Origin: Syncephalis fuscata
Taxonomy: Eukaryota; Zoopagomycota; Zoopagomycetes; Zoopagales; Piptocephalidaceae
Direction of reading: 5' to 3'
DNA length: 64,000 nucleotides
Assembly (NCBI GenBank): GCA_025786725.1
Contig: JAHLTZ010000014.1
Span: 496,001 to 560,000, forward strand
The translations under genes and the position numbers were made by a program. Numbering within the stretch: the first letter of the stretch is position 1; every line of letters starts with the position of its first letter. The notes under the pieces are model-generated. The model was not told the DNA's origin, made no database searches, and saw only the letters and a list, made by a program, of their open reading frames with translations. Positions 40,063-58,853 of this stretch are shown in pieces.

Positions 40063-41262
40063 TTATCGACAAGCTCGCGCTATAGCTTCTAATAAAGCGG
40101 GAGCTGTGCGTTTTGGTAGTCTACAGCTATGTTTGCGATGTCCATTAAGACCACAATTAAAACATGAGATCAGTCTAGATGGGATCAAAACATGTGACTG
40201 GTTACAAAATTGCTGTTGCTGGTCACAATAGGATTGATCTGAATGCTCATTTTCATACAAACTATTACTATTTACGGTTTCTAAATTAGCGGTTGATGGC
40301 CGGCGAGCATGCGAGAGACTTGCTGGCCTGGGTCGAAATTGCTCAAATTGGCGAGACAGATCGTCAAATTCATGAATTAATTCTTGAATACGTTCTACGT
40401 ATCGTTGATGAAGTCGACGGCGCTGTTGAGTACGAGGATGAGCTAATGGTGAAACGGGATTTGCAGGACTGCTTGGTGATTTTGCCATGGCTATACCTTC
40501 AACATTTGAACGTAATGCAAATCGTGGCGATATTGGCGACGATTGTACGCGGATTGGATAGCCCAACAATCGGGGAGAAAGCACTAGCGATGAAGGACGA
40601 TATTTGTCCTGCTGTCTAATACTGGCCACTCGATTTCCGGAAACGTGGTTCCCAGACGTAACGTCTTCGCTGTTATTACTATTTTGATCATGGCTTAAAT
40701 CGAGCAATTCGTCAGATGTACAGCGTGCAAGACGGGAGACATCTTCAGAAACAAAAGCACAAAACACCGCCTTTCCTAACTCCGAACCTACATCATCCAC
40801 TACAGCGCGTGTTTTTCGGTAGATCACTACAAGATAGCGATCCAGAGGCTCGGTTCTGTTTGCTTCGGCCAGTTGGCCGAGCAAAGACGAGTAGAATCGG
40901 TGTGCATGGCTATGTGCATTCTCTTCTGGTTTTTGCACAAATAATCTCCAAGGACTTATTAAAAGATGGTGACGGTTAGGCGGCCCTACTGCACGGGAAA
41001 ATTCACGGCGAAAGACACGCCATTTGCCATCAGCTAGTTCAGTATGTGCGCTGAACCAAGCCTGCCATGTCTCAGAAAGATAAAGATATGCTAAACGAGA
41101 CCAGCTGTTGCGAGGCCATTTATTATACTTGGCACACGATTCAAAATGGCCTAGCCATTCTTCCACATTGTCCTCGTGTTCTCCCTGGAAGATGCTTGGC
41201 TTTTGAGTTATATTGAGTCGCAGTGGCACTGTAGTTGATGATTTACGATAAAAGGCAAGCAT
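40063..41262 (-). CDS. Intact orphan Gag-like protein (Ty3-type capsid plus zinc knuckle)
   Basis: A single open exon of about 400 codons. The likely start is the ATG complementary to 41260-41262 (MLAFYRKSSTTVPLRL). The capsid-like part reads PSIFQGEHEDNVEEWLGHFE with LAYLYLSETWQAWF, the usual pattern of retrotransposon Gag N-terminal capsid domains. A basic Ser/Pro linker and a coil (ERIQELIHEFDDLSRQFEQF) follow, then one CCHC knuckle, CFNCGLNGHRKHSC. No protease, reverse transcriptase, integrase or tRNA-primed site is seen on either side, and no matching flanking repeats were noticed. The reading frame has no stop or shift, unlike most long genes here, and it is more G+C-rich than its flanks. 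It could be a domesticated Gag or the surviving part of an element. Confidence 0.7.
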   Translation of the reverse strand: MLAFYRKSSTTVPLRLNITQKPSIFQGEHEDNVEEWLGHFESCAKYNKWPRNSWSRLAYLYLSETWQAWFSAHTELADGKWRVFRREFSRAVGPPNRHHLLISPWRLFVQKPEENAHSHAHRFYSSLLGQLAEANRTEPLDRYLVVIYRKTRAVVDDVGSELGKAVFCAFVSEDVSRLARCTSDELLDLSHDQNSNNSEDVTSGNHVSGNRVASIRQQDKYRPSSLVLSPRLLGYPIRVQSSPISPRFALRSNVEGIAMAKSPSSPANPVSPLAHPRTQQRRRLHQRYVERIQELIHEFDDLSRQFEQFRPRPASLSHARRPSTANLETVNSNSLYENEHSDQSYCDQQQQFCNQSHVLIPSRLISCFNCGLNGHRKHSCRLPKRTAPALLEAIARACR

Positions 41263-42709
41263 AATCACCTGACCTAATGGTAATAGCAGCGATGGTTCAA
41301 GTAACAACGCAGTTACAATAATAAGACTAACTGAGTAGTTTAATGCAATGGATTTATAAAATAGATGCGCACCCTGGAGCTCGGGTCATAAACTGGTGCT
41401 TTAATAGTGGATTTGCTCTGGTCATTCAAAATGCTAATGCTTTTGTTTGATGACATTTATACTCACGCATAAGTAGTGCTCATCAAACCGTTACGGTTTC
41501 AATTACGTTTTAAAAGTAAAGCACACGCAGATTTCAATTGACAATCTGACCTTTGACCTGATTCACACACCTTATGCTGTCTGTGCGCTATTCCTGGTCA
41601 GCAATATAAACGTCTACACACGGTACAAGCTTATGCAGCAGGTTTTGCATGTATGTGTAATCTAATGCAAAAGTGGGCGACGCATCTTCATGCATATTCT
41701 TATTTCTCAAAACTTGAACATAAAAAGGTTTACTTGTATTGGCAAAGCTTTTATATTATCAATATGTCTAACGAATACAACCAAAAATATCTACATGCTA
41801 AATCGAGATATATTTAAATCATTTCAACTTTTAGTATTGTTATTGTTGTTGTATTAAATAAAACTTTAGTATAATTCTAGTATTAATACTTATATATTTA
41901 TTGTTAGACAAGCTATTCTAGATTATATTAAAAGCAGTACATACTGTACGTCTGATTTCGACAAACATCATTCTAAATGCAGTCAATTTTATGGGGCATG
42001 CAGCAATATGCACAAGTCCAATGTCATTGTAAATTGAATGCACTGCCATTTCTGCACTAATAGTCATAATATCATATTGAATCCATATGCAAACCAACTA
42101 GTATATTTTTATGGTTCGTAAATCGCATTCAGTTTATGAACAATGATAGATACCCGTAGCAGCTACCTATTTAATACATCAATTCTGATGCAGTGTAATT
42201 AAAAACCTTTATTTAAATATATGTAACTATTGGCTATTATAATTATCGAAAAGACAAAAACAAAAACAAAAAACGTTATTTTATAACACCAATGCACCCA
42301 TGTCCACCATATGGTAGACTATGTAGCAAAAATACGAATTACTATGCACGCCTGTACCAAATATGCACTGAATAATTGATATTATCATATCGATTGTGTA
42401 AATTTCAAACAAGTTAAAACAAATAACAAATTGAATAATATTAGTCTATCAATATATTGTTATACGCGTAATTCAGAGCATTGTGTATATCTGTTGTTAT
42501 TGATTCACATTGCACATAAACAGCATAGCCTATACACATAGCATATTGGTAGCTCAGCATAACCATCGACTTAAGTAGCCCACAAAAATATACACAACTA
42601 ACCAGTGGTAGTATCATCACATTCTACTTTCTGCTAAACACTCACTACTACCTACTTTATACTACTGCACTTTATTGTCTATTCTACTTGTTTATCTTGA
42701 CAAATCAAT
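41263..42709. other. AT-rich non-coding stretch
   Basis: No gene is supported. An ACAAAAACAAAAACAAAAAA run lies near 42256. The last 150 bases before 42710 are CT/AC-rich (TTCTACTTTCTGCTAAACAC) and could be the promoter of the signal-peptide exon. Confidence 0.4.
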
Positions 42710-42968
42710 ATCACCATAAAGCTTTCTATTGCCGTCATTTGCACCGTCGTTGTGGTTTTGATAGTCACCACAACTATAGTGGATGCTAAGCCAAACCGAA
42801 TAAACTGTGGTATGTTGAAACTATAATAATTTGTTACTCATTTAACCAAATACCGTTTGTATCATCAAACTAATGCTACTAGATCGTTAGTAATACTGTA
42901 TTTTAATTAACTATAATCTAATCACATGCTATACATTGTGCTTAATTTTCAGAATACAATAATAGCCG
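42710..42968 (+). CDS. Signal-peptide exon and second exon of a microexon-like gene
   Basis: The frame ITIKLSIAVICTVVVVLIVT followed by TTIVDAKPNRINC is a plain signal peptide resembling that of secreted protein A (FTIKFIFAITTT). It ends at a GTATGT donor at 42810; intron 42810-42952 ends TTTTCAG; a 16-nt exon 42953-42968 gives EYNNS and leads straight into the intron array. No ATG is visible between the in-frame TGA at 42698-42700 and the hydrophobic core: the candidate positions read ATC (42710) or ATA (42716). The start may be lost, miscalled, or in an upstream exon. What the mature protein is cannot be told. Confidence 0.45.
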
Positions 42969-43794
42969 GTAAGTAGTATTATACATTGATCAGTTATTCG
43001 CTAATCCAATGATATGCATCATGTGCTTTTGATAATTGAAACTAATAGGACGTAAGTGGAATTGCATATTGATCAACCATGCGCTAAACATATGCTATGT
43101 ATTACGTATGCCTAATAATTTGAATTAATAGGTTGTAAGTGGCACTTCATATCAATTAATTATGTATTAGATGCGCGCTATGTGCTTTGTATATTTAACA
43201 ATTTGTATTGATAGTTTGTAAGTATTGGTATATTAACTAGCTATATACTACTTATGTGCTATATTATCTATGTGTTCAATAACTTGTGCTAATAAATCGT
43301 AAATTTTATTGTATATCAAATACCTATTCAATAATTATGTACCATGCTATCTATGTGTTTACTGATTCGTGCTAATAACTTGTAAGTGGTATTTATATTA
43401 ATCAACTACATGTTAATTATATGCCACGTATTGTGTATATTTAATGCTTTAATAACCTGAAATTAACAGTTGGTAAGTGACATCAGATATTAACTAGTTA
43501 TACACTATTTATGTGCTATGCATTGTATGTGTTTACTAATTTGTGTTAATAGTGCGTAAGTGATAGTGTATATTAATTGAATATACGCTAATAGCATGTC
43601 ATGCACTATGTATACCTAATGACTTTTATTATTAGCTTGTAATTAATATTGTATACTAGCTAATCTATACACTAAACATATAATATTCACTGTATGCATT
43701 TGATGATTTATACTGATAGGCTGTAAGTAGCATTACATATTATTAATTTATACATTAATTACATGGTTTGCGTTGCGTATATTTATAAACATAG
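42969..43794 (+). repeat. Tandem array of ten 80-nt intron-like units separated by 3-nt spacers
   Basis: Ten units each begin GTAAGT (twice GTAAAT or GTAATT) and end near TAATAG/GATAG, and are separated by exactly three variable bases. Donors lie at 42969, 43052, 43135, 43218, 43299, 43382, 43473, 43556, 43639 and 43723, a period of 83 in most steps. The spacers read CCG (before the first), GAC, GTT, TTT, ATC, CTT, TTG, TGC, CTT and GCT. Units share an AT-rich interior with ATATTAATTA and TATGTGCTATGTATTGTG-like blocks but are well diverged. Units 4 and 5 end TAATAA rather than TAATAG, so those acceptors are broken. The last unit is 72 nt and ends CATAG at 43794. See findings. Confidence 0.75.
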
Positions 43795-45007
43795 AACAAC
43801 GGAATCTCTCAAGACATTAGCATTGGTGATATAATTAAACTGCTGTTTAGATATATTTTAGATATACATTCAGCAACAAACAAGATTATTTGACAGCTAC
43901 CGTTTAGTCCACTCAAACATCAAGTCCTACCCAATGCCTTAGTCTATCCATTCTCACTCAATGGCACCATTGTATTACCAACAAGCCTATATTTAGTTGC
44001 TTATTTAGCTATGCAAACTCATAGTAATAAACACATGGTTCCATATTAATTAAATTTAATCAAGTTGCTATATCTACAATCACGTATCATTTATATTCAA
44101 TAAATAATAAATATTAGTCAAGTAGGGATATTAATAGCGGATACATGCAAGTATGATATATCGATTATCAACATAAATTTGCTTAATTTTAGTAATATTA
44201 TCATTCAAGTAACAATTTGATATTTAGATATTATGACTATACGTATTCGCAATGTAATCCATTATATTTATTTACCATTGTGCCGTAAATAGTAGTTAAA
44301 TTATTATCATCATACAGTCGGGATAATCTCATATTGGGATTAGCATAATAGCAGTCTTTAATTTCCAACAATTGAACAACACATTTTGCCGCTCTATTAA
44401 GACTGAAGCTTACTTTGCATCTCCCAGAGCAGTAAAGCTTTTTATAAATTGATCGTAAAGACTTGATTCAATTAATTGATTTGTATTTTAAACATTTAAG
44501 TAAATAATGTAACATACTATTTGATTTTTTGAAACATTTGAGGTCGATCATTGTTGTTGTTGGCCATGTGTAGAAAGATTGATCGAATATTAATAAAAGC
44601 CATATGATTGATTTCATGTCATTCGCATTTGTTGTTGTTGCATCTATGTACAGTGTGAGTTATTGCATCTGAATGGTCTGTTCTATTTTTCTAATATTCT
44701 ACTATTGTATTTTGGGCATATTTGTGATGTAAGATCAGTATTAATATAACTATTATAAAAGTCGTTTATTAAACAGCCACTTTTCCTATAGCCACCCTGA
44801 CTAAGTAAATGGCATTTTGAACAATTAATCTTGGATGTGATATTATACATGTTATAGTGATGAATAGATGTTTAATTATATCTAAAATGTTAAGAAAAAG
44901 GAAGTGAAATGAATAAATAAAAAATATGCGAGTACAATAATTTTAATGATTTTTTTAAAAAAAGAAAAACAGCTCATTTAATTTTCTATTTTGTAACAAT
45001 TCATTCC
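43795..45007. other. Region after the intron array and upstream of the Nop8 gene
   Basis: The first 40 bases after the array could be a terminal exon (LTTESLKTLALVI then stop if the phase is 2). No other gene is supported. A dispersed repeat lies at 44485-44740. The last 70 bases are AT-rich leader of the Nop8 gene. Confidence 0.35.
44485..44740. repeat. Dispersed repeat, copy 1
   Basis: About 250 bases match the stretch at 63555-63805 in the same orientation, including the blocks ATAATGTAACATACTATTTG, TTGTTGTTGGCCATGTGTAG, AATATTAATAAAAGCCAT, AATGGTCTGTTCTATTTT and ATTTTGGGCA, with differences and small indels between them. A weaker match may run on to about 44820, where copy 2 enters the coding end of the gene at the right edge. 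It looks like an old duplication of a 3' flank. Confidence 0.7.
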
Positions 45008-56869: not shown

Positions 56870-57950
56870 TTGATTAGTATAGAGTTTAGATTACAGAAAT
56901 TAAAGTTACAAGCTTATTTTATTGTGTTAGCGGCCGGCTACCCAAGACTAAAAAATACTAATTTATTAGACTTAGATTTTAGATGGTTATCGTTAACGTA
57001 CTAACTTGCATGAATTATTATAAAGTTTAGGTTACAGAAATTAAGATTACAAGTTTGTTTTAATGTGTTAGCGGCCGGCTACCCAAGACTAAAAAAATAC
57101 TAATTTATTAGACTTAGATTTTAGATGGTCGCTACTAACATACTAATTTGTTATATTTAGATTTTAAATGGTCGCTATTAACCTACTAATTTGTTATATT
57201 TAGATTTTAGATGATCGCTACTAACCTACTAATTTGTTATATTTAAATTTTGGATGCTCATTATTAACATATTAATTTATCATTTAAATTTTGGATGCTT
57301 ATTATTAGCATACTAATTTGTTATATTTAGATTTTAGATGGCCACTATTAACCTACTAATTTGTTATATTTAGATTTTAGATGGTTGCTATTAACCTACT
57401 AATTTGTTAGACTTAGATTTTAGATGCTTATTATTAGCATATTAATTTATCATTTAAATTTTGGATGCTTATTATTAGCATATTAGTTTACTATTTAAAT
57501 TTTGAATGGTCGCTATTAACCTACTAATTTGTTATAGTTAGATTTTAGATGGTCGCTACTAACATACTAATTTGTTATATTTAAATTTTGGATGCTTATT
57601 ATTAGCATATTAATTTATCATTTAAATTTTGGATGCTTATTATTAGCATACTAATTTGTTATATTTAGATTTTGAATGGCCGCTATTAACGTACTAATTT
57701 GTTATATTTAGATTTTAGATGGTCGCTACTAACACACTAATTTGTTATATTTAAATTTTGAATGGCCGCTATTAACGTACTAATTTGCTATATTTTGGAT
57801 TTTTAGGTAGCCGGCCGCTAACACATTAAACAGCATTAACTTTAAATTTTAGGTAACTATATGCTAACACACTAACTTATAATATTTAGATTTAGATAGC
57901 CGGCCGCTAACACACAACAACGACAATTTCAAAATTTAAGTAACTATATA
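56870..57950. repeat. Inner inverted repeats around the 43-bp array
   Basis: GTGTTAGCGGCCGGCTACC occurs near 56926 and 57066, each within a direct repeat of about 130 bases that also has TACAGAAATTAA and ACCCAAGACTAAAAAA. The inverse, GGTAGCCGGCCGCTAACAC, occurs near 57806, and a close form (ATAGCCGGCCGCTAACAC) near 57897. The GC-rich core stands out in AT-rich DNA. The 43-bp minisatellite lies between the two orientations. Confidence 0.65.
57125..57800 (+). repeat. 43-bp minisatellite
   Basis: About fifteen tandem units. One form begins ATGGTCGCTATTAACCTACT and continues AATTTGTTATATTTAGATTTTAG; a shorter 41-bp form begins ATGCTTATTATTAGCATATT and continues AATTTATCATTTAAATTTTGG. The two forms alternate in a higher-order pattern. 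No open frame is kept through the array. Confidence 0.8.
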
Positions 57951-58164: not shown

Positions 58165-58235
58165 AGGCTGCGTGTGAAGTATACTTAACCGTGTATACTT
58201 GTGTATACTACGGCCCATACTTCACACACATTTAT
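58165..58235. repeat. Hairpin with 12-base arms
   Basis: GTGTGAAGTATAC near 58169 and GTATACTACGG.../ATACTTCACAC near 58220 form inverted arms, with a second nested TATAC/GTATA pairing in the loop. It lies just upstream of the 14-bp minisatellite. Confidence 0.5.
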
Positions 58236-58326
58236 ATTTCTTTTTAGAAATACATATACAATCATAACTGCTATGAATAATAACAGCACCATTCCGATAT
58301 TACCAAGCAATACCAGCACAGGCTAC

Positions 58327-58768
58327 CAAATACAAGCAACACAACACAAGCAGCCAAATACAAGCAGCCAAATACAAGCAACCAAATACAAGCAACCAAA
58401 TACAAGCAATCAAACACAAGCAGCCAAATACAAGCAACCAAACACAAGCAACCAAATACAAGCAATCAAACACAAGCAATCAAATACAAGCAACCAAATA
58501 CAAGCAGCCAAATACAAGCAACCAAACACAAGCAGCCAAATACAAGCAATCAAACACAAGCAACCAAATACAAGCAACCAAATACAAGCAGCCAAATACA
58601 AGCAACCAAACACAAGCAGCCAAATACAAGCAATCAAACACAAGCAACCAAATACAAGCAGCCAAATACAAGCAATTAAATACAAACAGTCAAATACAAG
58701 CAGTCAAATACAAGCAATCAAACACAAGCAACCAAATACAAGCAGTCAAATACAGGCAAATACAAATA
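58327..58768 (+). repeat. 14-bp minisatellite open in many frames
   Basis: About thirty tandem copies of a 14-base unit, AAATACAAGCAACC with AGCAGCC and AGCAATC variants and AAACACAAGC in some copies. As 14 is not a multiple of three, each frame cycles with a 42-base period. A plus-strand frame 58201-58788 reads KYKQPNTSNQIQA-type repeats; the minus strand reads hydrophobic LVACIWLLVFGCLYLAACI-type repeats. The upstream ATG 58273 (MNNNSTIPILPSNTSTGYQI) could begin a Gln/Asn/Lys-rich product, but I see no independent sign that it is a gene. Confidence 0.85.
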
Positions 58769-58853
58769 CACAACTACTAAATAAATAGGCGCAAAGGTTC
58801 ATACCTTTGCATCTTTTAACTAACAGCAATATAATCAATATATTTTATTGCAT

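Follow-up and report, generated by a model that had tools for sequence, protein, structure and literature searches.

At the ratchet points of recursive splicing, an acceptor is directly followed by a new donor, which allows stepwise removal. The micro-exon genes (MEGs) of schistosomes, as presented in PMC10526429, code for variable, secreted proteins that carry a signal peptide, and contain many small exons, mostly multiples of three in length. According to the body text of that paper, these exons span 6 to 81 bp (3 to 81 in its abstract), mostly 15 bp, and the introns 100 to almost 5000 bp (PMC10526429). The bicycle genes of aphids are described as forming large families that evolve fast. They have about 17 exons on average; many internal exons are unusually small, and nearly all share one phase, starting at codon position 2 (PMC9168663). 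Introner-like elements and stwintrons of fungi are described as multiplied, mutually similar introns (PMC4457414, PMC8469720).

The array considered here is found in Syncephalis fuscata (Zoopagales, Piptocephalidaceae), a member of a genus called mycoparasitic (PMC10386755). It lies in a window of 64,000 nucleotides, the whole stretch of DNA that was analyzed, and very probably represents a member of a large S. fuscata gene family for small, apparently secreted peptides; almost every codon for the mature part would be split by a separate intron, about 80 nt long. What the DNA sequence demonstrates is the gene architecture and its reading frame, selection within this frame, and the homology of one product to an intronless paralogue. 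The window copy has the following predicted features.

42562..42715 (bounds approximate), plus strand: family-conserved upstream region and 5' leader, delimited by eye against the upstream regions of other array loci and intronless members; a TTAAATAGCCCAC-like box near 42570, then the leader with CAATATCACC at its end
42716..42809, plus strand: exon 1, 94 nt, ending in phase 1, with a leader resembling a signal peptide; in this copy, neither an ATG start nor a terminal Arg-Arg is present
42810..42882, plus strand: intron 1, from GTATGTTG to CTACTAG
42883..42885, plus strand: microexon ATC, weak donor GTTAGT
42966..42968, plus strand: microexon CCG
42969..43794, plus strand: the ten introns and nine triplets of the initial annotation
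43049..43051, plus strand: microexon GAC
43132..43134, plus strand: microexon GTT
43215..43217, plus strand: microexon TTT
43296..43298, plus strand: triplet ATC after the lost acceptor TAATAA, probably skipped
43379..43381, plus strand: triplet CTT after the lost acceptor TAATAA, probably skipped
43470..43472, plus strand: microexon TTG
43553..43555, plus strand: microexon TGC
43636..43638, plus strand: microexon CTT, weak donor GTAATT
43720..43722, plus strand: microexon GCT, whose last base forms a stop (T/AA) with the first 2 bases of the last exon
43795..43990 (end approximate), plus strand: last exon, with the junction-spanning stop and then a 3' part homologous to other members, including intronless ones

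The initial annotation had recognized ten donor-acceptor units separated by three varying bases, and all nine triplets were found again with exactly 3 nt between neighboring units; two additional triplets, ATC and CCG, lie between exon 1 and the ten-unit array. Eight of the ten donors read GTAAGT, as previously counted, and the remaining two are GTAAAT and GTAATT. The donor-to-donor steps are 83, 83, 83, 81, 83, 91, 83, 83, and 84, so that the 83-base step occurs in six of nine cases rather than in the seven listed earlier. Both of the TAATAA acceptors noted at that time are present, directly before ATC 43296 and CTT 43379. With exon 1 devoid of an ATG start and of Arg-Arg, two acceptors lost, and several donors weak, the window copy looks like a decaying family member, probably not a working gene, in line with the early suspicion that part of the array may be dead. 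Unlike it, other array copies are intact with respect to the ATG start, Arg-Arg, acceptors, and donors.

Elsewhere in the window, a kinase has its nearest named relative in Thamnocephalis sphaerospora (84% over 74% of the query). An open frame at 40063-41307 on the minus strand contains a zinc-knuckle-like motif, recognized by eye and perhaps belonging to a retrotransposon gag; a Pfam search with it gave nothing at E ≤ 0.001. Two tandem repeats, with units of 43 bp and 14 bp, occupy 57097-57803 and 58325-58759, respectively, and the open frame 58201-58788 runs through the latter. The 64-kb window has no Rfam match at the gathering threshold.

A search of the S. fuscata genome with the window array returned at least 115 matches (40 of 310 candidates scored). 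Further arrays, which the initial annotation had proposed to look for, are abundant: TAATAG-NNN-GTAAGT occurs 2716 times genome-wide versus 5 times for the reversed pattern used as a control, and the same two motifs at spacings 4 to 24, pooled, occur 383 times versus 251 in the control. In 20 loci (L009 to L028, both strands), AG-Nk-GTAAGT has 406 occurrences with k = 3, versus 0 to 17 for any other single k between 0 and 30. The 17 instances of AG-N6-GTAAGT, the top count among the other spacings, perhaps include a few two-codon exons. The 3-nt exon length is required by the gene models, and the independent support for it comes from these two sets of spacing counts. The same unit in the form of a plain satellite without splice-site conservation, named at the outset as evidence against microexons, was sought in the S. 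fuscata genome and not seen. The start of exon 1 has 237 copies genome-wide at up to 2 mismatches (control, 0), intronless members included, and at least 86 first exons end in a canonical donor (control, 0). The modeled array genes have 6 to 51 exons of exactly 3 nt each, and the genome is estimated to hold about 4600 such exons (2716 x 782/457, near-duplicate contigs included). P0122, the one annotated array-gene protein compared in detail, consists of L016 exon 1 spliced to the first microexon, followed by intron read-through, and misses its array.

Several contigs carry family genes as inverted near-copies on the same contig (C57, at about 418553 and 474767; C1, at about 475893 and 531562; C275, at about 3971 and 4907), which might be palindromic duplications or assembly artefacts. 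At C19:3862-4836 and C24:513729-514230, a repeat with a step of about 158 bp has 15 nt between TAATAG and GTAAGT; this is either an exon of 15 nt or, behind an inner AG, a CAG triplet. Three arrays carry inside one intron a similar insert some hundred bases long: L036 (plus strand, after about 2300), L068 (minus strand, after about 1560), and L070 (plus strand, in the long stretch preceding the first modeled triplet at about 1520). By eye, this insert looks like a short interspersed element of tRNA origin, and its target site is perhaps repeated.

The introns show spliceosomal features, namely, a GTAAGT donor, a branch-like CTAA at positions 33 to 36, and an AG acceptor. Of 748 modeled internal introns, 708 measure 57 to 93 nt. 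Their end conservation and length are partly built in, because the models demand AG and G[TC] and favor steps of 62 to 96 nt. The CTAA motif, which is not imposed by the model, is the best-kept inner element of the 80-nt introns, at 80 to 97%.

A signal-peptide-like leader was recognized by eye in exon 1, which ends in phase 1 in 31 of the 34 modeled loci and is out of phase in L012, L015, and L017. Arg-Arg forms the last full residues of exon 1 in 26 of these 31 loci; one further codon follows it in L029, L034, and L037, in L018 the first microexon completes the second Arg, and the window copy, the fifth of the others, has none. Given the phase-1 end of exon 1, every codon is divided between two 3-nt exons, taking N3 from one triplet and N1N2 from the next (N3/N1N2). 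The exons described earlier as single-codon ones do have the length of a codon, 3 nt, but the triplet is not the codon itself. In the N3/N1N2 frame, 645 codons from 27 of the 34 loci (seven near-duplicate, out-of-phase, or decayed loci, among them the window copy, left out) contain 2 stops, versus a mean of 23.0 for order-shuffled triplets; none of 5000 trials was as low. An earlier count in the phase-1 frame, over 19 of 21 loci, gave 3 stops in 386 codons versus 10.6 after shuffling. Both remaining stops come from TCT GAG in the related loci L023 and L027, and a third is found in L028, which was excluded as a near-duplicate. The alternative N2N3/N1 frame, with 44 stops in 645 codons, was rejected.

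The last exon has the form AG-NN-TAA in 21 of the 28 loci that have it in view, the others being L012, L014, L015, L033, L037, L067, and the window copy. Of these seven, L033, the window copy, and L012, whose first exon is not in phase, have a stop spanning the last junction. The last triplet already makes a junction-spanning stop in 13 of the 28 loci. The TAA of the array last exon and the sequence downstream are similar to the stop and the 3' sequence found in intronless members. Some units have lost splice sites, and 3 of the 34 first exons are not in phase, so that a part of the family is dead or mis-assembled.

The annotated proteins P0121 and P0123 are coded without interruption. Among the intronless reading frames inspected, 27 of 28 have TAA as their stop, and the 3' sequence behind it is mostly the one that the array genes have. 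The virtual product of L033 (49 microexons) matches contiguous DNA on C79 (71%, residues 12 to 47, E = 2.6e-8); in a local comparison it reaches E = 6e-18, whereas 100 order-shuffled sets gave 1.5e-4 at best. Two blocks were compared with its intronless partner: 14 codons are identical, 8 synonymous, and 1 nonsynonymous, and all 23 of these L033 codons are drawn from two exons each. This partner is indirect evidence that the introns would be removed from RNA. L033 is the one of three spliced products searched in the S. fuscata genome that matched; those of L037 and L034 found no contiguous intronless match there. In the local comparison, the strong match is confined to 1 of 31 products, and the other four matches at E ≤ 0.05 are no better than those of shuffled sets (219 hits in 100 sets). 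A database search with the L022 leader plus product retrieved 7 proteins, mainly via the leader, all 7 from S. fuscata. Among 136 candidates, a 7-member family profile had 16 matches at E ≤ 0.1, all of them S. fuscata proteins and none pointing to homology with MEG or bicycle proteins; such a search reaches only those relatives that have short words in common. For five family members, Pfam gave nothing above the cut-off.

The triplets and their flanks evolve differently. Among 76 unit pairs with near-identical flanks (at most 1 of 80 sites differing), drawn from 384 units of 17 loci, 22% differ at N1, 5% at N2, and 25% at N3, and the N2 differences are transitions only. Such low, transition-only divergence is expected if N2 is the third codon base, and given N3/N1N2 codons, diversifying selection on codon positions 1 and 2 would produce the excess at N1 and N3. 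This excess over the flanks also suggested a targeted mutator of triplets, but in four recent gene pairs the triplets exceed the rest hardly or not at all, with 0/66, 0/48, 1/42, and 3/42 triplet bases differing versus 0.5 to 1.4% elsewhere. Between L020 and L021, 34 of 122 triplet bases differ versus 3.0% elsewhere, a value that unit misalignment may inflate. As the four recent pairs have no clear excess and the L020/L021 unit alignment is doubtful, diversifying selection with homogenized introns is preferred over a mutator, though it is not proven.

Copies that are otherwise almost identical can also be set apart by entire units of intron plus codon. L009 and L022 are separated by a 162-bp gap, equal to two units, the gaps between L020 and L021 measure 80, 81, 162, 164, 235, and 244, and L068 contains three GGT triplets whose introns are almost the same. 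In a tree built from the 5' region of 33 of 34 array loci and 25 of 28 intronless ones, the array and intronless forms interleave, with about 7 structure changes (6 to 9 in bootstraps), at least 2 of which are required by branches with good support; the bootstrap had not yet converged.

The literal reading of the initial annotation, a gene with a series of 3-nt microexons that follows an exon for a signal-peptide-like leader, is favored by the spacing, frame, stop, and intronless-paralogue tests. It has to be weighed against a tandem satellite inside one large intron, in which only the first donor and the last acceptor would be used, the inner ends would be repeat consensus, and the skipping of all microexons would leave the leader, one residue, and a stop. 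The units are tandem repeats with similar interiors, and their wholesale skipping preserves the frame since each microexon is 3 nt, but neither the order-dependent stop avoidance in the exon-1 frame, nor N2 acting as a third codon base, nor a 49-triplet L033 product with an intronless paralogue and mostly synonymous changes is predicted by such a structure, which is thus very improbable. The N2 pattern, the stop avoidance, and the L033 codons place the variable bases under coding constraint, so that a plain satellite was rejected. It can hardly be credited, either, that the triplet itself is the codon (phase 0). Read in this way, the triplets hold 2 stops in 672 (0 in 454 in the earlier set), and the pyrimidine-rich N2 would yield hydrophobic residues; however, exon 1 has a phase-1 end in all but three loci, N3 would be a mostly silent third base and yet is among the most variable sites, and the products match one paralogue only (11 of 11 hits are to L044, with E = 0.001 at best), a locus not in frame itself. 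The phase-0 reading was rejected on these grounds.

Two other alternatives concern the state and the origin of the arrays. That they once coded and are now mostly dead, with the intronless members doing the work, would account for a window copy without a start, for the lost acceptors, and for three first exons out of phase, and intronless members are numerous; but the frame, nearly stop-free over 27 loci, is cleaner than that of a mostly dead set, although very young copies would look alike, and this possibility is rated as unlikely. Somewhat less unlikely, though still doubtful, is an origin by intron gain rather than loss, with an intronless gene filled by introner-like insertions inside codons. 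The interleaving of the two forms on the 5'-region tree speaks for it, but dozens of insertions exactly 3 nt apart and in one phase are hard to obtain by independent events, unit duplication is more directly visible (the GGT repeats of L068 and the L009/L022 gap), and loss via cDNA accounts for the intronless copies as easily.

In the favored microexon reading, exon 1 would provide the leader, mostly terminated by Arg-Arg, and the first base of the next codon, each 3-nt exon positions 2 and 3 of one codon plus position 1 of the following one, and the last exon the stop. A recursive-splicing ladder, also raised in the initial annotation and acting stepwise, would be the likeliest mechanics: the introns would be removed one by one from the 5' end, each splice setting the growing exon directly against the next GTAAGT, in a ratchet that would avoid two splice complexes on one 3-nt exon. 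The peptides might be secreted, processed at Arg-Arg, variable, and directed towards host fungi. The array is also a unit of evolution, the gain or loss of an intron-plus-triplet cassette adding or removing one amino acid in frame. A tentative extension would make the intron-plus-codon cassette a diversity device, combining variable splicing isoforms, unequal exchange between like introns, cDNA-derived intronless copies, and a cycle of array and intronless forms. Because every microexon is symmetrical, any subset of them could be skipped in frame, so that variable splicing could provide a single gene with very many peptide isoforms; unequal exchange between similar introns would add or remove single amino acids, and spliced products would re-enter the genome via cDNA as intronless genes.

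If confirmed by RNA, these would be among the most extreme gene structures known, with about one intron per amino acid, and the S. fuscata spliceosome would remove dozens of successive introns three bases apart, which bears on the minimal exon size and on whether splicing must run in order. Since array and intronless forms of one family share one genome, they offer a natural test of intron gain and loss. The peptide could be changed by one amino acid at a time through recombination within introns.

A literature search, with preprints and most subscription journals outside its coverage, found no description of such 3-nt-exon arrays. Like the MEGs, the S. fuscata genes have many tiny exons, and with the leader recognized by eye they may specify secreted variable products, but their exons are 3 nt long, their introns of about 80 nt are alike within an array, and intronless members exist. 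The exons of bicycle genes are longer than one codon. The S. fuscata 3-nt exons resemble them in being all of one phase with a start at codon position 2; however, bicycle genes belong to insects, not fungi, and the passages of PMC9168663 consulted do not mention tandem arrays of like introns. For introner-like elements and stwintrons, the descriptions consulted do not mention tandem arrays with three bases between copies (PMC4457414, PMC8469720). Introner-like elements place one intron family at scattered positions in unrelated genes; the loci analyzed here all belong to the one peptide family. As in recursive splicing, the S. fuscata acceptors adjoin the next donor, so that stepwise removal is possible, but here three coding bases would be kept per step, over dozens of steps at intervals of about 80 nt.
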